In this document: positions 10,141 to 22,915 of the stretch, piece after piece
How the letters are laid out: each line of letters starts with the position of its first letter
How positions within the stretch are numbered: the first letter of the stretch is position 1
Virus record (IMG/VR): IMGVR_UViG_3300044511_000091
Coordinates: 1 to 24,363 of that record
Length of the DNA stretch: 24,363 nucleotides
Source of the DNA: a virus
Direction: 5' to 3' (one strand)
Made by a program: the position numbers and the translations under genes
Notes under the pieces: model-generated
Seen by the model: the letters and a program-made list of their open reading frames with translations, nothing else
Database searches by the model: none
Told to the model about the DNA's origin: nothing

Positions 10141-10575
10141 ATGGAAAATATTATCGACACTAGAGATTTAGCAGAGAGAAGAGACGAGCTTAAAACCCGA
10201 ATTTTGGACGCTTTTAATTATACTTTTTTTACTGAATTAGACTGTTGTCCTGATATTGAAACATTAAGCGACAACATCCCCGAAAACGCAACAAAAGAAG
10301 ACAAAGAGCTGTTTTTTTCTGATTGGAAAGATGAAATAAATGAAATAAATGAAATTGACGAAATTGAGCATTACTGCCCTGACTTTGAATTCGGCTGTAC
10401 TTTGATTCATTATGATTATTTCACCGAATATACAAAAGAGCTTTTAATTGATTGCGGTTATATAAGTAAAGACTTTCCCACGTGGATTGAGATTGATTGG
10501 AACGCTACCGCTGAAAATGTGATGTATGACTACTCAGAAATTAATTATCGAGGTGAAACATACCTTTTCAGATAA
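10141..10575 (+). CDS. Conserved phage protein of unknown function, copy 1 of a pair
   Basis: A 144-residue, strongly acidic protein. It starts with IDTRDLAERRDELK and has a Glu/Ile/Asn run (DEINEINEIDEIEHY, about 64-78). It then follows a pattern I know from widespread hypothetical phage proteins: D-E-G--LI--DYFTEY--EL--D-G-I-K--P-WI-IDW--TA--V--DY----Y-GE-Y. The length and ending fit that family. The function is unknown; the acidic character would suit a DNA mimic or a protein binding basic partners, which is speculation. A close paralogue lies at 10890-11327. The stop is followed by an A9 tract and a G6/C6 hairpin. Confidence 0.75.
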   Translation: MENIIDTRDLAERRDELKTRILDAFNYTFFTELDCCPDIETLSDNIPENATKEDKELFFSDWKDEINEINEIDEIEHYCPDFEFGCTLIHYDYFTEYTKELLIDCGYISKDFPTWIEIDWNATAENVMYDYSEINYRGETYLFR

Positions 10576-10889: not shown

Positions 10890-11327
10890 ATGGAAAAGTT
10901 TATTTACACTAGCAACCTTTCAAAAAGAAGAGACGATTTAAAAAAACAAATTTTGCATGATTTTAATGAGTACTTTTGCACTGAATTAGATTATTATTCA
11001 GACATTGAAACCTATTTAAATAATTCAGGCGCTGAATATATAACAAAAGAAAATAGGGATACATACTTTTCTAATTGGCAAGATGAAATAGATGAAATAA
11101 ATGAAATTAATGACATTGAATATTGGTGCTCTGACTTTGAATACGGTGCTACTTTAATACATGAAGACTACTTTACTGAGTACGTTGAAGAGCTTATAAA
11201 CGATTGTGGATACATAAATAAAGACTTTCCCAAATGGATTGATATTGATTGGGAAAGTACCGCAAAAAATGTGATGTGTGATTATACAGACGTTAAATAT
11301 CAGGGTGAAACTTATTACTGCCAATAA
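10890..11327 (+). CDS. Conserved phage protein of unknown function, copy 2 of a pair
   Basis: A 145-residue paralogue of the 10141-10575 product. The shared blocks are SKRRDDLKKQILHDFNEYF at the start, DEIDEINEINDIEYWC in the middle, ATLIHEDYFTEYVEELINDCG, and a C terminus with KWIDIDWESTAKNVMCDY and YQGETYYC. The two copies differ mainly in the linker at residues 40-60. Tandem retention of both suggests different partners or dosage. Function is unknown. It has the common AT-rich leader and is followed by an A10 tract and a G8/C6 hairpin. Confidence 0.75.
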   Translation: MEKFIYTSNLSKRRDDLKKQILHDFNEYFCTELDYYSDIETYLNNSGAEYITKENRDTYFSNWQDEIDEINEINDIEYWCSDFEYGATLIHEDYFTEYVEELINDCGYINKDFPKWIDIDWESTAKNVMCDYTDVKYQGETYYCQ

Positions 11328-11392: not shown

Positions 11393-12001
11393 ATGGAAAA
11401 TTTAAAAGCAATCGGAAAAAAAGAAAATGGTGAAATAGTCGAATTTGAAGTTGTAAATGGTTATATTTATTGTTCAGGGAACAACCTAATAGAGTTACAT
11501 TTGCCTGATGGGGTGAAAGATGTTCATTGTTCACACAACAACCTAACTAAACTACATTTGCCTGATGGTGTTGAAAAGGTTTGGTGTTCACACAACAACC
11601 TAACAGAACTACATTTACCTGATGGTGTGAAAGTTGTTAATTGTTCAGGTAACAAGCTAAAAGAGCTACATTTGCCTGATGGGGTGAAAAAGGTTTATTG
11701 TTTATCTAACGAGCTAACAGAACTACATTTACCCGATGGTATTAAAGATGTTTGGTGCGCTGGTAACAAGCTAACAGAACTACATTTGCCTGATGGTGTT
11801 AAAATTGTTCATTGTTCGGATAACAATTTCGCTAATGATGACACCTATTTTGTCAATCCAAAAACTGATAGAGTTGTTATCAAACAAGGTGATTTATACA
11901 GTTGTGGGTGTTGTTGCATGAAGACAAAAAAAGACTTCTATTCTATTTGCAAAGAAAAAGGTTTTTTTGAAATAATCGAGCATTTCAAACTTAATAGCTA
12001 A
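11393..12001 (+). CDS. Short-repeat LRR protein with cysteine-rich tail, paralogue 1
   Basis: A 202-residue protein. The N-terminal cap (1-30, LKAIGKKENGEIVEFEVVNG) is shared by all four paralogues. Six 19-residue repeats of the form NNLTELHLPDGVKVVNCSG follow, and then a conserved tail with YFVNPKTDRVVIKQGD, the cluster SCGCCCMKTKKDFY and EIIEHFKLNS. The repeat resembles the 20-residue LRRs of YopM/IpaH-type proteins (L--L-LP--L--L-V--N-L), here with Cys at one fixed ladder position. No signal peptide is present, so it is probably intracellular. LRRs bind proteins; the Cys cluster may bind metal. The partner is unknown. It shares the AT-rich leader with its neighbours. Confidence 0.85.
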   Translation: MENLKAIGKKENGEIVEFEVVNGYIYCSGNNLIELHLPDGVKDVHCSHNNLTKLHLPDGVEKVWCSHNNLTELHLPDGVKVVNCSGNKLKELHLPDGVKKVYCLSNELTELHLPDGIKDVWCAGNKLTELHLPDGVKIVHCSDNNFANDDTYFVNPKTDRVVIKQGDLYSCGCCCMKTKKDFYSICKEKGFFEIIEHFKLNS

Positions 12002-12047
12002 ATATCCCCCTAAAAAAAATACTAACAAATTTAAAATTTTAAAAATT

Positions 12048-12545
12048 ATGGGAACATTAAAAGCAATTGGAAAAAGAGAAAATGGTGAAACAATAGAGTT
12101 TGAAGTTGTAAATGGGTGTGTTTATTGTTCAGGGACTAACCTAACAGAATTACATTTGCCTGATGGGTTGAAATGTGTTTCTTGTTCAGGCAATCAATTA
12201 ACAGAGCTACATTTGCCTGATGGGGTTGAAGTGGTTGATTGTTCATATAACTATAATCTAACAGAGCTACATTTGCCTGATGGGTTGAAAGTAGTTAATT
12301 GTTCAGATAACAAGCTAAAAGAGTTACATTTGCCTGATGGTGTGCAAATTGTTCATTGCTCAGATAACAATTTCACTAACAATGACACTTATTTTGTCAA
12401 TCCAAAAACTAACAGAGTAGTTATTAAACAAGGCGATAAGTATTCATGTGGTTGCTGTTGCATGAAGACAAAAGAAGAGTTCTATAAAATTTGTAAAGGG
12501 AAAGGCTTTTTTGAAATAATCGAGCATTTCAACCTTAATAGCTAA
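12048..12545 (+). CDS. Short-repeat LRR protein with cysteine-rich tail, paralogue 2
   Basis: A 165-residue paralogue with the same cap (LKAIGKRENGETIEFEVVNG), four repeats and the intact Cys-rich tail (SCGCCCMKTKEEFYKIC). One repeat carries a two-residue irregularity (SYNYNLTEL). Two repeats have GLK instead of GVK. It begins 46 bases after paralogue 1, behind a C-run/A-tract spacer that lacks the G arm seen elsewhere. The different repeat number with constant ends shows that the array expands and contracts between fixed terminal domains. Confidence 0.85.
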   Translation: MGTLKAIGKRENGETIEFEVVNGCVYCSGTNLTELHLPDGLKCVSCSGNQLTELHLPDGVEVVDCSYNYNLTELHLPDGLKVVNCSDNKLKELHLPDGVQIVHCSDNNFTNNDTYFVNPKTNRVVIKQGDKYSCGCCCMKTKEEFYKICKGKGFFEIIEHFNLNS

Positions 12546-12596
12546 ACATCCCCCCCCCTGAGAAAAAAAATACTAACAAATTAAAACTATACAATT

Positions 12597-12737
12597 ATGA
12601 CTGAAAAAAGATGTACAAAATGCAACCGCCTATTATATATTGACACCTACGGAATAAAAGAAATACGCAATGACAAAATAACATATAAAATAAACGGCAA
12701 TATATCGGTAGTGTGTAAATGTGGGCAAGAAAATTAA
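12597..12737 (+). CDS. 46-residue zinc-ribbon mini-protein (Com-like)
   Basis: MTEKRCTKCNRLLYIDTYGI... ending VVCKCGQEN. It has CxxC at residues 6-9 and CxC at 40-42, a small zinc-ribbon layout. The beginning 'RC-KCN-LL' closely recalls phage Mu Com, a zinc-binding translational activator of the mom gene, and its many prophage relatives. It carries the same leader (ACTAACAAATTAAAACT, ACAATTATG) as the LRR genes and is the last gene before a strong terminator. Whether it regulates translation here is unknown. DNA methyltransferases are present further on, but no mom is seen. Confidence 0.7.
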   Translation: MTEKRCTKCNRLLYIDTYGIKEIRNDKITYKINGNISVVCKCGQEN

Positions 12738-12769
12738 TTAATCAATAAACATAACCAAACAGAACCTTA

Positions 12770-12818
12770 AAGGTCAATTAATAAGTTATCAAATAGCTTA
12801 TTGATTGACCTTTTTTTT
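12770..12818 (+). terminator. Strong intrinsic terminator
   Basis: AAGGTCAATTAATAAG (12770-12785) pairs with CTTATTGATTGACCTT (12797-12812) over 16 positions with one G-T pair, has an 11-base loop, and runs into eight T residues. It ends the first rightward operon after the zinc-ribbon gene. Confidence 0.9.
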
Positions 12819-12831
12819 ATTCATGTATCAA

Positions 12832-13006
<175 letters not shown>

Positions 13007-13201
13007 ATGGTAACAATTAATATTACAGATGCTCAAATAGAGATTATCAAAAAGGCATTAGAATTTGCCTACAACAGCAATTTAAAAATCATTGATTCAA
13101 ATAGGGAGCTTTTATCCTTATATGCAATTGATGAAATTATCAAAGAGGCTAATAAATTTATAGATGTACAATCTATTTTTAATAAAAGCACAACAATTTA
13201 A
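13007..13201 (+). CDS. 64-residue helical small protein (unknown)
   Basis: MVTINITDAQIEIIKKALEFAY... : after a short strand the protein is nearly all helix (IEIIKKALEFAYNSNLK, ELLSLYAIDEIIKEANKFI). It has the common leader ahead of its ATG. Its last codons and stop (ACAATTTAA) are part of the first copy of the 42-43 base spacer repeat, so the C terminus may have been reshaped by repeat insertion. No family is recognised. Confidence 0.6.
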   Translation: MVTINITDAQIEIIKKALEFAYNSNLKIIDSNRELLSLYAIDEIIKEANKFIDVQSIFNKSTTI

Positions 13202-13276
13202 ACAATGGGCACACCCCCTCGAAAAAAAAATCTAACAATTTTAAACAATGGGGATACCCCCTCGAAAAAAAAATCT
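13192..13276. repeat. Spacer repeat, two tandem copies
   Basis: Two copies (13192-13233 and 13234-13276) of a 42-43 base element. In order it contains AACAATTTAAACAATGGG, a short variable part, ACCCCCTCG, nine A and TCT. The GGG/CCC parts can form a small hairpin. It separates the 64-residue gene from LRR paralogue 3. Confidence 0.9.
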
Positions 13277-13299
13277 AACAAATTAAAATTTATACAATT

Positions 13300-13674
13300 A
13301 TGAAAACATTAAAAGCAATCGGAAGAAGAGAAAATGGTGAAATAGTAGAGTTTGAAGTTGTAAATGGCTGTGTTCATTGCTCAGATAACAAGCTAACAGA
13401 GTTACATTTACCTAATGGTGTTATACAAGTTGATTGTTCATATAACAAGCTCACGGAATTACATTTACCTAATGGGGTGAGAGATGTTCGTTGTTCATAC
13501 AACAAGCTAACAGAGTTACATTTACCTGATGGTGTGAAAGTTGTTGATTGTTCACATAACAACATAACAGATTTACATTTACCTGATGGCATTAAAGAGA
13601 TTTATTTTCAATTTAACAAACTAACAGAGTTGCATTTGCCTGATGGGGTTGAAAAAGATTTGGTGTTCATGTAA
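13300..13674 (+). CDS. LRR paralogue 3, truncated: lacks the cysteine-rich tail
   Basis: A 124-residue protein with the shared cap and five repeats, ending in VEKDLVFM instead of the conserved tail. Compared with its paralogues (GTTGAAAAGGTTTGG), it has one extra base at 13650-13665 (GTTGAAAAAGATTTGG). Restoring the frame gives VEKIWCSCNNLNNG, which then runs straight into the spacer repeat at 13673. Two events are therefore visible: a one-base insertion in an A-run, and loss of the tail by fusion between AACAATTTA inside an LRR and the same letters in the spacer. It may be a decaying copy or a shortened functional form. Confidence 0.75.
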   Translation: MKTLKAIGRRENGEIVEFEVVNGCVHCSDNKLTELHLPNGVIQVDCSYNKLTELHLPNGVRDVRCSYNKLTELHLPDGVKVVDCSHNNITDLHLPDGIKEIYFQFNKLTELHLPDGVEKDLVFM

Positions 13675-13714
13675 CAATTTAAACAATGGGGATACCCCCT
13701 CGAAAAAAAAATCT
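13673..13714. repeat. Spacer repeat copy fused to the LRR coding sequence
   Basis: One copy of the 42-base spacer (AACAATTTAAACAATGGGG, ATACCCCCTCG, A9, TCT). Its left edge replaces the 3' end of LRR paralogue 3, and its right edge leads into the common leader of paralogue 4. Confidence 0.85.
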
Positions 13715-13737
13715 AACAATTTAAAATTTATACAATT

Positions 13738-14574
13738 ATGGAAACATTAAAAGCAATCGGAAGAAGAAAAAATGGTGAAATAGTAGAGTTTGAAGTTATA
13801 GATGGGTGTGTTTATTGCTCAGATAATCAATTAACAGAACTACATTTACCTGATGGTGTGAGAATTGTTGAGTGTAGATTTAACTACCTAACCGAGTTAC
13901 ATTTACCTAATGGGGTTGAAAAGGTTTACTGCTCATTTAACTACCTAACTGAGCTACATTTACCTGATGGTGTTGAAGATGTTTGGTGTTCAAATAATAA
14001 GCTAACAGAATTACATTTACCTGATGGTGTTGAAATTGTTTATTGCTCAGGTAACAACCTAACAGAACTACATTTACCTGATGGTGTTAAAGAGGTTCGG
14101 TGTTCAAGCAACAATTTAACAGAGCTACATTTACCTGATAGCGTTGAAGATGTTTGGTGTTCAAATAATAAGCTAACAGAATTACATTTACCTGATGGTG
14201 TTGAAATTGTTTATTGCTCAGGTAACAACCTAACAGAGCTACATTTACCTGATGGGGTGAGAATTGTTGAGTGTAGATTTAACTACCTAACCGAGTTACA
14301 TTTACCTAATGGGGTTGAAAAGGTTTACTGCTCATTTAACTACCTAACTGAGCTACATTTACCTGATGGTGTGAAAGAATTTTATTGTTCAGAAAATAAT
14401 TTCCCAAATAATGACACCTATTTTGCTAATCCAAAAAATAACAGAGTTGTTATTAAGCAATGTGATAAGTATTCATGTGGCTGTTGTTGCATGAAGACAA
14501 AAGAAGAGTTCTATGAAATTTGTGAAGTAAAAGAATTTGATGAAATAATCGAGCATTTCAAACTTAACAGCTAA
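13738..14574 (+). CDS. Short-repeat LRR protein with cysteine-rich tail, paralogue 4 (longest)
   Basis: A 278-residue protein with the shared cap, ten 19-residue repeats and the full tail (CSENNFPNND, SCGCCCMKTKEEFYEIC). Two internal blocks are nearly identical at DNA level: 13858-13972 against 14257-14371 (offset 399 = 7 x 57 bases) and 13972-14088 against 14143-14259 (offset 171 = 3 x 57). These are the mark of recent unequal crossing-over or gene conversion. Consensus Cys, Asn and Leu positions are kept throughout, arguing for selection on the fold. It is probably cytoplasmic and protein-binding; the target is unknown. Confidence 0.87.
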   Translation: METLKAIGRRKNGEIVEFEVIDGCVYCSDNQLTELHLPDGVRIVECRFNYLTELHLPNGVEKVYCSFNYLTELHLPDGVEDVWCSNNKLTELHLPDGVEIVYCSGNNLTELHLPDGVKEVRCSSNNLTELHLPDSVEDVWCSNNKLTELHLPDGVEIVYCSGNNLTELHLPDGVRIVECRFNYLTELHLPNGVEKVYCSFNYLTELHLPDGVKEFYCSENNFPNNDTYFANPKNNRVVIKQCDKYSCGCCCMKTKEEFYEICEVKEFDEIIEHFKLNS

Positions 14575-19803: not shown

Positions 19804-20526
19804 ATGGAAAATACAAACGATACTAACAGCACAAACCCAACCACTACTTATAGCGAGTGTTATCGACTGCCTTTCCTTTCTCTTTTCCACGCTGACTGTA
19901 TGGAAATTATGAAACAATACCCTGATAAATACTTCGATTTGGCTATTGTTGACCCTCCATATGGGTTAGATATAGCTAATATGAATATGGGTATAGGCAA
20001 AAGCAAAAAAGCAAGTAAAATACAAAACAGGAAATGGAAACCTAAAGACTGGGATAAAAACGCACCTAAAAAAGAATATTTTTATGAACTTTTTAGAGTT
20101 AGCAAAAATCAAATTATATGGGGTGGAAACTATTTTGAATTACCACCGTGTAAAAATTACATAATTTGGGATAAAGAAATACCTAAAGGACTTTCTTTTG
20201 CTGATTGCGAGTTAGCTTGGACTTCGTTTGATTGCGCACCTAAAATGTTTAGATATTCGGCATATTTGAATAAAAACGAAAAATTCCACCCTACACAAAA
20301 ACCAGTTGATTTATACGATTGGATTTTAACACGATACGCAAAAGAAAACTCAAAGATTATAGACACTCACTTCGGTAGCGGTTCAATAGCTTTAGCAGTT
20401 AATAAAGCAACCAGATTAGATAAAATGAATTTACACTTAACAGCGTGCGAGATTGACAAAGAATATATTGATAAGGCAATCAAAAGAATTTCAGAAAGTA
20501 TCAAACAAGGGACGCTGTCTTTTTAG
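19804..20526 (+). CDS. DNA methyltransferase, beta class (N6-adenine/N4-cytosine), copy 1
   Basis: A 240-residue SAM-dependent methyltransferase. Motif IV DPPYG (50-54) comes first and motif I in THFGSGS (188-194) near the end, an order that defines the beta class. HPTQKPVDLYDW (about 162-173) is the typical block before motif I. No restriction partner is near, so it is probably an orphan enzyme that protects phage DNA or alters host signals. The specificity region between IV and I is short (about 100 residues). It has its own 30-base gap after the helicase, without an attC-like element on its left side. A related enzyme follows. Confidence 0.9.
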   Translation: MENTNDTNSTNPTTTYSECYRLPFLSLFHADCMEIMKQYPDKYFDLAIVDPPYGLDIANMNMGIGKSKKASKIQNRKWKPKDWDKNAPKKEYFYELFRVSKNQIIWGGNYFELPPCKNYIIWDKEIPKGLSFADCELAWTSFDCAPKMFRYSAYLNKNEKFHPTQKPVDLYDWILTRYAKENSKIIDTHFGSGSIALAVNKATRLDKMNLHLTACEIDKEYIDKAIKRISESIKQGTLSF

Positions 20527-20531
20527 GTTGC

Positions 20532-20593
20532 AACTAACGTTTCCGCTATGAGTAGTGGCGGTTTTGGAACTACTCACTTATAAAATTACACAA
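20532..20593. other. Left half of an attC-like site after methyltransferase 1
   Basis: AACTAACGTTTCCGC begins like the 5' half of the attC-like elements further right (CTAACG...). A stem TGAGTAGT...ACTACTCA with a 12-base loop follows (about 20549-20576). The expected 3' half (a GTTAG box) is missing; the next gene starts instead. See the right half at 21335-21360. Confidence 0.4.
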
Positions 20594-21334
20594 ATGACAA
20601 TAGGAAATACAAACGAGAATATACCAACTGCACACCAACTTTCGGATAGCGAGTGTCATGTGCAACCTTTTTTTACTTTCTATAATGCCGACAATATGGC
20701 TATTATGAAACAATATCCAGATAAGTATTTTGACTTGGCAATTGTTGACCCTCCGTATGGAATTGACATAAATAACCAATCGCAAGGTAAAGGCGGTGGC
20801 GTGGCTCGTAAAATAGATTATACAAAAAAAGATTGGGATAAAACAGCCCCTGATATAATATATTTTAACGAACTGCGGAGAGTGTCTAAAAATCAAATTG
20901 TTTGGGGCGCAAACCACTTTATTAGCAAATTGCCTTTTGATAGTAGTTGTTGGATAGTTTGGGATAAAGATAATGGAGAAACTGATTTTGCTGATTGTGA
21001 ATTAGCGTGGACAAGTTTTAAAACTGCAGTTAGGCGTTTTAAATGGACATGGGCAGGGATGAGACAGCAAAATATGAAGCATAAAGAGGAAAGAATACAC
21101 CCAACTCAAAAACCAGTAGCCTTGTACGAATGGATAATAAAAAACTACGCAAATGAAAACGATAAAATAATTGATACTCACTTAGGTAGTGGAAGTATTG
21201 CAATAGCAATTGACAAGGCAAACACATTAGATAAAAAGAACCTATCATTTGTCGGCATTGAATTAGACCCCGACTATTATCGAGCGGCAGTAGAACGATT
21301 CAAAAACCATAAACGACAATGCGTGCTTTTTTAA
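20594..21334 (+). CDS. DNA methyltransferase, beta class, copy 2
   Basis: A 246-residue relative of copy 1, sharing MAIMKQYPDKYFDLAIVDPPYG, ADCELAWTSF, HPTQKPVALYEWI and IIDTHLGSGSIAIA. DPPYG is at 52-56 and LGSGS at 197-201, again the beta-class order. A GTG at 20555 would add 13 residues, but the ATG at 20594 has a plausible AT-rich leader, while the extension overlaps the attC-like stem. The target region (residues 60-160) differs clearly from copy 1 (WTWAGMRQQNMKHKEER), so the recognised DNA sequences probably differ. No restriction enzyme is seen. Confidence 0.9.
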   Translation: MTIGNTNENIPTAHQLSDSECHVQPFFTFYNADNMAIMKQYPDKYFDLAIVDPPYGIDINNQSQGKGGGVARKIDYTKKDWDKTAPDIIYFNELRRVSKNQIVWGANHFISKLPFDSSCWIVWDKDNGETDFADCELAWTSFKTAVRRFKWTWAGMRQQNMKHKEERIHPTQKPVALYEWIIKNYANENDKIIDTHLGSGSIAIAIDKANTLDKKNLSFVGIELDPDYYRAAVERFKNHKRQCVLF

Positions 21335-21365
21335 GGTTGGTTATGAGCCGATGTTAGCAGTAACC
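21335..21365. other. Right half of an attC-like site and left end of the membrane-protein cassette
   Basis: After the methyltransferase stop, GGTTGGTTATGAGCCGAT leads into GTTAGCAGTAACC (21353-21365). The latter is the exact reverse complement of GGTTACTGCTAAC at 21912-21924, on the other side of the next gene. GTTAG matches the 3' core of attC sites. Confidence 0.5.
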
Positions 21366-21407
21366 TTTTATTAATGTAAATTATTAACAACTAAATACTT
21401 ATAAATT

Positions 21408-21911
21408 ATGTGGACAATTATTATTATTACAGCAATCGCAATTTTTATTTCATGTTACACAGAGTATAAATATGGTTTTTACTCGAATGAATTTGATTAT
21501 TTTATTTCGGCATCTATGGGGCTTATAATTGGTTGTTTTATTGGACTAGCAATTGCTTTAGCTTTACCAGCAAAAACAGAAATTGTAAAAACAACTTACA
21601 ATTTAGAGGCACTACAAGATAATAACAGTGTTAAAGGTTCATTCTTTTTGGGTAGTGGACAAATTGAAGGTAAAATGAAATATGTTTTTTACTATGAAAG
21701 AGACGGTTTTTATAAACTTGAACAAGCCGATTACGAAGAAGTAAGAATCAAATACTCAGAGGGGAGACCAAAAGCAGAAAGATTCAATAAAAGAAATGTA
21801 AAGGATGCTTTTATAAACAACTTTGCTATTGATTTTAATTGCTATAATGAATATATTATTTATGTGCCAAAAGGAACAATTAAGCAGAACTACTCGCTCG
21901 ATGCTCAGTAA
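21408..21911 (+). CDS. Membrane protein on a cassette-like unit (unknown)
   Basis: A 167-residue protein with two N-terminal membrane helices (IIIITAIAIFISCY, about 3-16; ASMGLIIGCFIGLAIALAL, about 35-53) and a polar C-terminal domain of about 110 residues (GSFFLGSGQIEGKMKYVFYYERDG...) that looks beta-rich. The KYVFYYERDGFYKLEQ stretch resembles cassette- and plasmid-borne membrane proteins of unknown function. The gene fills one unit bounded by the 13-base inverted repeat GTTAGCAGTAACC / GGTTACTGCTAAC. No promoter is seen inside the unit. Confidence 0.7.
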   Translation: MWTIIIITAIAIFISCYTEYKYGFYSNEFDYFISASMGLIIGCFIGLAIALALPAKTEIVKTTYNLEALQDNNSVKGSFFLGSGQIEGKMKYVFYYERDGFYKLEQADYEEVRIKYSEGRPKAERFNKRNVKDAFINNFAIDFNCYNEYIIYVPKGTIKQNYSLDAQ

Positions 21912-22009
21912 GGTTACTGCTAACGTTCGAGGCTAAGAAACGTAGCCTTTATAAGTCGTTTCGAGTTTAAAATACGCTAATTGGCTATTTTTCTTAGCCT
22001 TTGTTAGCA
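21912..22009. other. attC-like folded recombination site 1
   Basis: The outer boxes TGCTAAC (21918-21924) and GTTAGCA (22003-22009) are exact complements. Inside them GGCTAAGAAA-cg-TAGCC (21931-21947) pairs with GGCTA-tt-TTTCTTAGCC (21983-21999). This gives two pairs of boxes, a short spacer (gttcga against ttt) and a variable centre, the organisation of integron attC sites (RYYYAAC ... GTTRRRY). The stop codon of the preceding gene directly abuts it. Confidence 0.6.
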
Positions 22010-22023
22010 AATGTTAGTTATTT

Positions 22024-22401
22024 ATGAAAGTAAGTTTTGATTTTGATAGCACTTTAACGAGAATGAGTGTTCAAAAATATGCAAAAGAATTAGTTGAAAG
22101 AGGTTTAGAGGTTTGGATTGTAACGAGCAGAATGGGTTTTGGTAAAGAACCTAATCCAACATGGAATGATGATTTATTTGAGGTTGCAAAATATGTTGGA
22201 ATTAAAAAAGAAAATATACACTTCTGTTGTATGGCTAATAAATCAGAGTTTTTAAAAGATAAAGGATTTGTTTTTCATATTGACGATGATAACATTGAAT
22301 TATCATTTGTTAAAACAGATACTAATGTAGTGCCAATTTATCTATTTGGTAATAAATATTGGAGGAATGATTGCGAGGTCGCTCTTTCTAATATTTGCTA
22401 A
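22024..22401 (+). CDS. HAD-superfamily phosphatase-like protein on a cassette-like unit
   Basis: A 125-residue protein with the full HAD motif set: SFDFDSTLT (4-12; nucleophile Asp6 and Asp8), VTSR (33-36), the motif III Lys in NKSEFLKDKG (Lys73 region) and HIDDDN (85-90). There is almost no cap domain, so it is a minimal phosphohydrolase, comparable in size to small phage or polynucleotide-type HAD proteins. Its stop codon lies inside the attC-like box (GCTAACG), and the unit ends are GTTAGCAAAT and ATTTGCTAAC, exact inverted repeats. The substrate is unknown; a nucleotide or nucleic-acid end phosphate is possible. Confidence 0.75.
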   Translation: MKVSFDFDSTLTRMSVQKYAKELVERGLEVWIVTSRMGFGKEPNPTWNDDLFEVAKYVGIKKENIHFCCMANKSEFLKDKGFVFHIDDDNIELSFVKTDTNVVPIYLFGNKYWRNDCEVALSNIC

Positions 22402-22526
22402 CGTAACACGGCTATGGGCATGGGGCGAACTGCGAGAGCTAATTTTTCGCAAAGCGGTAAAGCCCGAACGGGTAAAGCAACTGCTAAACCGCACAAAATA
22501 ATCCCCTGAACATGGGCTAGTGTTAG
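22393..22526. other. attC-like folded recombination site 2
   Basis: Begins with ATTTGCTAACGTAACAC and ends with CTAGTGTTAG. TAACAC (22404-22409) pairs with GTGTTA (22520-22525). GGGG/CCCC and CATGG/CATGG-type arms lie inside, and smaller stems GCGGT/ACCGC (about 22454-22492) and CCCGAACGGG (22463-22472) lie in the centre. Longer (about 130 bases) and less regular than site 1, but with the same outer boxes. No gene is visible in 22402-22565. Confidence 0.5.
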
Positions 22527-22565
22527 TGGCAGGTTTTTAGTACTAATTTCAAAACATATAATAAA

Positions 22566-22880
22566 ATGGAAACAAATATCACAAAAGGAGATTGGAGCGT
22601 AAATTCAATTGATTTAGCAGACTATAAATCTTTAGCTGTTATTTCAGAAAAAGCTCAAAAAGTTATTTGTCATTGTCATTTATCAGATATGAAAATGTCT
22701 AAAGAAAATATGGAAAATGCACAATTAATTTCTGCTGCACCTGATTTATTGTCAGCCCTTAAAAACTTAATGGAAGGTGTTGAATCACTTCCACCGTCAA
22801 CTTCAATAGTATGTGTTTTAGATAAGCAATATAAAGACGCTGAAAATGCTATAAAAAAAGCATACGGTCATCATTTTTAA
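22566..22880 (+). CDS. Small phage-type protein on a cassette-like unit (unknown)
   Basis: A 104-residue protein. ENAQLISAAPDLLSALKNLMEGVE (about 51-74) and the ending AENAIKKAYG match a widespread motif of hypothetical phage proteins ('NA-LIAAAPELLEAL... AI-KA-G'), typically 80-150 residues. The first 45 residues form a beta-like part (DWSVNSIDLADYKSLAVISE). Function is not known for the family. The unit ends GTTAGTGGCAGG (22522-22533) and CTTACCGCTAAC (22882-22893) are complementary if G-T pairs are allowed. Confidence 0.7.
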   Translation: METNITKGDWSVNSIDLADYKSLAVISEKAQKVICHCHLSDMKMSKENMENAQLISAAPDLLSALKNLMEGVESLPPSTSIVCVLDKQYKDAENAIKKAYGHHF

Positions 22881-22881
22881 A

Positions 22882-22915
22882 CTTACCGCTAACACCGACA
22901 TATTCGCAACAAATG
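22882..22915. other. Truncated attC-like left half joined to a phage intergenic repeat
   Basis: CTTACCGCTAAC (22882-22893) is the left core of a third site, but no GTTAG box follows. Instead a 22-base sequence starting ACCGACAT (22894-22915) follows; a related copy (18 of 22 identical) lies at 23147-23168, after the next gene. This marks the right edge of the cassette-like block. Confidence 0.45.

Follow-up and report, generated by a model that had tools for sequence, protein, structure and literature searches.

A predicted attC-like cassette recombination site in a Bacteroidota-type tailed phage and its probable association with a recombinase clade separate from IntI

Gene cassette arrays carried by phages are already known (PMC9892861). 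CALINs have been published for virulent phages including the Polaribacter phage P12002L, in which one of two tested sites was active with IntI1, and overall five of the six phage attC sites tested were functional with this enzyme (Qi et al. 2023, PMC9892861). In IntI, an enzyme-specific insertion has been described as essential (PMC8138268), and the reverse-orientation integrons of Spirochaetota (Treponema) show an unusual orientation of the integrase relative to the cassettes (PMC9668308). For the Bacteroidetes, IntegronFinder 2.0 reported that earlier finds were only integrases without cassettes, together with one complete integron, in Salinibacter (PMC9024848). In addition, short ORFs within attC and translation signals in attI1 have been reviewed (PMC8876359). 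The locus described here resembles integron attC sites and phage CALINs in its folded site with R and L boxes, its tandem cassettes and its small accessory genes, and P12002L in particular in the presence of DNA methyltransferase cassettes in a Bacteroidota phage without an integrase. It differs from integron attC in that the site lies 5' of the gene, whereas the classical site forms the 3' end of the cassette gene, and in that the matching ends extend well beyond the 7-nt R box.

The window, that is, the whole stretch of 24,363 nucleotides that was analysed, is an IMG/VR virus record encoding a terminase, a portal and a major head protein, and we therefore assign it to a tailed phage. The focal hairpin sits between the ORFs of cassettes 1 and 2 (Table 1), in a run of small genes 3' of two N6/N4 DNA methyltransferase genes. 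No integron-type integrase was found in the 24-kb record (no TIGR02249 match); having at least two attC-like sites (20531-20662 and 21917-22010) and no integrase, the window fits the definition of a CALIN. The three components of an integron, namely an integrase, an adjacent attI and tandem cassettes, occur in related Bacteroidota loci but not together in the window record. Comparison of these sequences makes it probable that a gene cassette, one of a small array in a Bacteroidota-type tailed phage, has this hairpin as its recombination site, and that the site belongs with a separate, non-IntI recombinase clade.

Table 1. Positions of the predicted sites, cassettes and methyltransferase genes in the window
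Feature	Start	End	Strand	Details
DNA methyltransferase 1 (N6_N4_Mtase)	19804	20526	+	Pfam
Second site	20531	20662	+	Between the methyltransferase genes; R' GTC at 20655; R2 E 7e-4
DNA methyltransferase 2	20594	21334	+	Pfam; start codon inside site 20531-20662
Cassette 1 body	21353	21924	+	R' 21353-21359; ORF 21408-21911; own R'' 21918-21924
Focal attC-like site	21918	22009	+	R'' 21918-21924; L'' arm 21930-21947; L' arm 21983-22000; R' 22003-22009
Cassette 2	21925	22402	+	Site core 21925-22009; ORF 22024-22401; own R'' 22396-22402
Cassette 3	22403	22893	+	Degenerate site 22403-22528 (R' 22522-22528); ORF 22566-22880; own R'' 22887-22893

The outer boxes of the focal hairpin, TGCTAAC and GTTAGCA, enclose the inner boxes GGCTAAGAAA (21931-21940) and TTTCTTAGCC (21990-21999), which read AGGCTAAGAAA (21930-21940) and TTTCTTAGCCT (21990-22000) when the terminal A-T pair is included, and a third pair, TAGCC (21943-21947) and GGCTA (21983-21987). 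All of these box pairs had been named in a preliminary description of the sequence and are present at their exact coordinates; the start that it gave for the feature, 21912, is 6 nt too early, the outer box beginning at 21918. It had also reported an asymmetric spacer of six against three bases, which is right for the letters as read (GTTCGA and TTT); because A21930 pairs with T22000, the truly unpaired spacer is 5 against 2 nt. The R boxes have a G^TT core and depart from GTTRRRY at the last two positions. The L-box score was 11 in a custom site finder, and an equal site appeared anywhere in 1 of 100 shuffled windows. In addition, the covariance model R2, no part of the window having been used to build it, recovered the site at 21917-22010 (E 1.4e-7, the E-values of the models built in this analysis, R1 and R2, being rough).

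Each single strand gives the hairpin when folded, as had been proposed as a check, with about -20.5 to -20.8 kcal/mol (z -4.6) for the + strand and about -17.8 to -18.3 kcal/mol (z -3.5) for the - strand; none of 200 shuffles folded as well. The L arm has 11 bp, and the unpaired spacer from R to L is present on both strands. The same proposal included a look for extrahelical bases, and there are none in the focal L'' arm: the arms are equal in length and without a bulge, and one 2x2 internal loop is the only difference between them. The split-box asymmetry is therefore real but does not have the status of an attC hallmark that it had been given, since the classical extrahelical base of the L arm is absent. 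This missing base, the spacer of 5 against 2 and the lack of a link to IntI separate the focal site from integron attC. The ATG of cassette 2 at 22024 is 14 nt past R', and so the start codon falls outside the focal site.

The cassettes in the window have matching inverted ends. In cassette 1, the ORF encodes a protein of 167 aa (PHROG 8077, function unknown), and the ends GTTAGCAGTAACCTT and AAGGTTACTGCTAAC (21353-21367 and 21910-21924) match at 15/15 positions in a repeat search. Cassette 2 encodes a 125-aa protein whose relatives in Flavobacterium phages bear the annotation HAD family hydrolase, and its ends (22003-22017 and 22388-22402) match at 14/15, the mismatch falling at position 11 as is usual in the family. 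Relatives of the HAD-like gene were considered as mobile cassettes in their own right and set aside, since most of those on viral contigs lie outside arrays. Cassette 3 carries PHROG 1273; its ends (22522 to 22893; GTTAGTGGCAGGTTT and GTTAGCGGTAAGTTT), matched by eye, agree at 12/15, and its hairpin does not fold better than shuffled sequence (z about +0.4). The array then terminates in an R'' (GCTAAC, 22888-22893) joined to the phage sequence ACCGACAT. A hairpin alone would not give such matching ends, because the matching stretches are the two extremities of the same gene unit, with several hundred bases between them.

The methyltransferase genes also show traces of cassette organisation. 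The coding sequence of methyltransferase 1 contains an R' (GTTATCG, 19859-19865), the 5' half of its site not being recognisable, and its body and leader are homologous to a cassette gene in contig L219. The second site holds the start codon (20594) and the first codons of methyltransferase 2, a layout also seen in L219-L221 and L225, and cassettes homologous to methyltransferase 2 occur in three records (G414, G415 and G413). Of the site 3' of this gene, only L'-R' is left (about 21335-21359). Related phages were recognised by 44% identity in the neighbouring VapE-like protein. No relatives were found when the DnaA-like neighbour was used as the probe for related phages. In contig L019, the VapE-like gene lies directly 5' of the homologue of window ORF 23208, and because these two genes abut in the related phages, such phages lack the segment that runs from methyltransferase 1 through ORF 22954.

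With a degenerate site past cassette 2 and the methyltransferase 2 site minus its 5' half, the phage cassettes could be fossils. Under such a reading the focal hairpin would be a true recombination site by origin, immobile in the window phage and retained for useful genes (the methyltransferases and the HAD-like protein), which is compatible with its being a cassette site. The degenerate neighbour, the truncated site and the record without an integron-type integrase favour immobility, but the focal R and L boxes are intact, and the ends of cassettes 1 and 2 are kept at positions where decay would be expected without selection or recent insertion. We regard an immobile remnant as possible, although on balance unlikely.

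The site family extends well beyond the window. An exact 17-mer of one focal arm matched 13 viral contigs, about ten of them with the same site and a conserved loop, and the two-arm pattern matched two MAG contigs, one of them labelled Bacteroidetes. Three short-pattern matches (L005, L009 and L011) were rejected as chance, the partner arm being absent. The covariance model R1 gave 79 matches in 28 sources, nearly all of them phage and including tandem arrays. A simple finder detected 20 sites in contig L007, all of them on a single strand, compared with 0-3 in shuffles, and the 93-kb record G005, whose phage genes include a DNA ligase, RNA ligases and a DNA transfer protein, carries 35 sites across about 27 kb. 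The record with this array of about 35 sites also contains two TnpB-like (OrfB_IS605) genes (L045 6754-7956 and L046 13582-14700). Sites matched by R1 and R2 also occur in P12002L, in some cases between the methyltransferase genes of that phage. Among 395 sampled Bacteroidota genomes, many of which are MAGs, 153 (about 39%) contain R2 sites. The same family was also seen on a contig binned as the archaeon Methanofastidiosum (L016 3495-3590), which is probably mis-binned.

Matching ends are a general property of these cassettes. Comparison of each cassette's start with its own end gave 348 matches in 56 phage cassettes (239 +/- 11.7 when permuted) and 252 matches in 46 bacterial cassettes (116 +/- 9.5 when permuted), values that were reached in 0 of 2000 permutations in either set. 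Of the phage sites, 68/72 are more stable as the + strand (p 1e-12), as are 72/91 of the bacterial ones (p 6e-11), and G.T wobbles favour it by 107:24 and 149:19, respectively; in three classical control attC sites from plasmid R721, the favoured strand likewise reads toward the integrase. Homologous cassettes share the upstream site (identity 0.88-1.0) and not the downstream one (0.63-0.68), as found in a small number (about five) of independent pairs, and in the fully homologous pairs the shared blocks start near the end of the upstream R'' and stop close to the next R'' (G326 duplicates, G005/G008 and, by block ends, G410/G411). Since the upstream site is shared and the blocks break at R'', the site belongs to the downstream gene, with exchange at R''. 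Breakpoints, strand bias and the recombinase geometry described below agree in indicating that the site is 5' of its gene and that the genes read toward the integrase, opposite to the arrangement in classical integrons.

In phage arrays, the site often includes the start of the gene. Long sites (104-140 nt) contain an in-frame start codon in 27/36 cases, compared with 3.8 +/- 1.8 expected from shuffled sites, and the frequency of a start codon inside a long site differs between phage (27/37) and bacterial (1/15) arrays (Fisher p 2e-5). The reading frame from the in-site start codon runs through R' into the gene, and in most of the 27 start-in-site cassettes R' agrees at all six variable positions with the R'' that immediately follows the gene's own stop. 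Methyltransferase 2 of the window is of this type and the focal site is not. In-site starts and R' boxes inside genes had prompted the idea that phage genes are split between cassettes, with the start codon supplied by the site of the upstream cassette; this was rejected, because homologous cassettes bring the upstream site along, so that start codon and gene form one unit. In several records (G005, L042, L149, L213-L225 and L234), the long sites contain the start codon and the first 12-38 codons of the cassette gene.

The recombinase clade linked to these arrays is typified by a 267-aa tyrosine recombinase of the phage record G409 (L228 8282-9085). A few genes separate its coding sequence from a cassette array on the same contig, and at least one phage may therefore carry the complete system. 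Close homologues are found where bacterial arrays end. The clade profile A6 matches 115/395 genomes, 89 of which also have R2 sites (odds ratio 11.6, p 7e-24, kinship ignored); the physical linkage and the one-sided geometry hold regardless of a correction for kinship, being independent of it. All 24 recombinases that have a listed site within 12 kb lie downstream of it. Twenty regions centred on the recombinase were drawn from the recombinase list, so that loci were not picked by their sites; all 20 contain R2 matches, and 40/43 matches point toward the recombinase (tallied from the table by reading). The recombinase gene itself is found in both orientations.

The distance between the GLRxxE and HxLRH motifs is 92-93 residues in the clade (17/17 measured), 133-134 in IntI (10/10) and 95-103 in Xer, and therefore the IntI-specific insertion (around patch III) is missing from the clade. 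In a tree, the clade stands apart from IntI and from Xer, neither being placed as its sister. The closest solved structures are XerC-like and XerA proteins (4a8e and 5hxy; also 1a0p), followed by IntI4. Like IntI (TIGR02249; VchIntIA, PDB 2a3v), the clade consists of simple tyrosine recombinases beside an attI-like platform and a cassette array, but it is separate and lacks the insertion; like XerC/XerD and archaeal XerA, its members are of similar length without the insertion, but they are apart from the Xer proteins of the same genomes and linked to cassette arrays. The Treponema reverse integrons share the unusual integrase orientation; there, however, a true IntI gene is flipped, whereas here the enzyme is not an IntI and the cassette genes face the platform. 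Several recombinases of the clade (L284, L287 and L115) have an extra N-terminal domain of about 100 aa.

Closely related recombinase loci from different genomes were compared next to the recombinase gene. At the platform edge (..AAC followed directly by TCCTTTATATATGCACC), about 97-104 nt away from the gene, similarity between the loci breaks off abruptly in 5/6 comparisons; in the sixth it extends for about 30 nt more, and the sequence before the edge differs in each locus compared. The last cassette's own R'' is 48-121 nt from the recombinase in 14/22 loci. Edge and last R'' together would look like an attI with the last-inserted cassette, cut at AA^C.

Another reading sees in the window array a CALIN of ordinary integron cassettes, each gene lying upstream of its attC, on which a classical IntI would act with exchange at R' (G^TT). 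The array organisation and the R and L boxes are integron-like, phage CALINs that work with IntI1 have been published as described above, and IntI genes (TIGR02249 above cut-off) are common in the sampled Bacteroidota (105/395). R2 sites, however, show no association with IntI across the same 395 genomes (36 with both, odds ratio 0.74, p 0.25), seven IntI regions yielded a single weak R2 match, and the association and geometry with the other clade are strong; breakpoints at R'' and a focal L arm without the extrahelical base also argue against service by IntI, which we judge improbable. IntI may nevertheless act on such sites too, since one of the two tested sites of P12002L, a phage that carries members of the family, was published as active with IntI1. 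A hairpin that works in the transcript between genes, whether as a terminator or as another RNA element, and is unrelated to recombination would suit the intergenic position and the better fold of the mRNA-sense strand but predicts neither a match of unit start and unit end 150-1500 nt apart nor R'' breakpoints nor the linkage and orientation of a recombinase and, with no Rfam match, is very improbable.

The preferred reading thus remains that of a cassette recombination site. The term attC-like, used in the preliminary description, holds, given the R and L boxes, the unpaired spacer, the strand-biased fold, matching cassette ends, tandem arrays, and a linked recombinase and attI-like platform near related arrays, all of which were observed in the sequences compared. 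The site is nevertheless not a canonical IntI attC, because the recombinase clade is without the IntI insertion and the genes are reversed relative to the site. One DNA strand would fold into the hairpin as the substrate of a tyrosine recombinase, which most likely acts like an integron integrase and comes from the separate clade without the IntI-specific insertion; this putative enzyme adjoins the attI-like platform in many Bacteroidota chromosomes and appears near an array in at least one phage. A cassette would have the layout [L'' - loop - L' - R' - gene - own R''], which puts the site 5' of the gene, and the cassette genes would be directed at the integrase, contrary to the classical arrangement. 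A recombinase of this clade, supplied by the host or by a co-resident element, may recognise and cut the folded + strand and excise the cassette at its R'' points. Strand exchange is predicted at AA^C of R'', corresponding to G^TT on the opposite strand. The excised cassette could then enter a platform or, in a phage, some suitable site. In this way the phage would carry methyltransferases, the HAD-like protein and small proteins of unknown function as cassettes. Since the window phage has cassettes and no integron-type integrase in 24 kb, it would depend on a host or co-resident enzyme and could be a shuttle; we infer the catalysis, the identity of the strand and this reliance on a host enzyme.

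No published description of the site family, the recombinase clade and the reversed layout was found in a search that was short on preprints and on most subscription journals, and the system, which is integron-like and widespread among Bacteroidota, with its own recombinase and with reversed genes, appears to be undescribed. It is likely that it represents a second widespread class of Bacteroidota integron, with an insertion-free integrase clade, its own attI, 5' sites, platform-facing genes, cassettes ferried by phages and, in phage arrays, a site doubling as the gene start. Surveys with IntegronFinder have found almost no complete integrons in the Bacteroidetes (PMC9024848), whereas here a coherent site family occurs in more than a third of the sampled species, accompanied by a recombinase and a platform. 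Should this be confirmed, cassettes could be recombined through a folded strand without the IntI insertion, a large phylum would have its own gene-capture system, and phages would be a plausible vehicle for cassettes, including methyltransferases that may help to evade restriction. The in-site starts also provide natural examples of recombination sites overlapping coding sequence.

Elsewhere in the window, four related ORFs (11393-14574) are made up of tandem 'LTELHLPDGV' leucine-rich-like repeats. Most of them share a Cys-rich C-terminus, and many of the internal copies are 75-82% identical. Upstream of this cluster, 10141-10575 and 10890-11327 are tandem duplicate genes of about 145 aa with 75% DNA identity.
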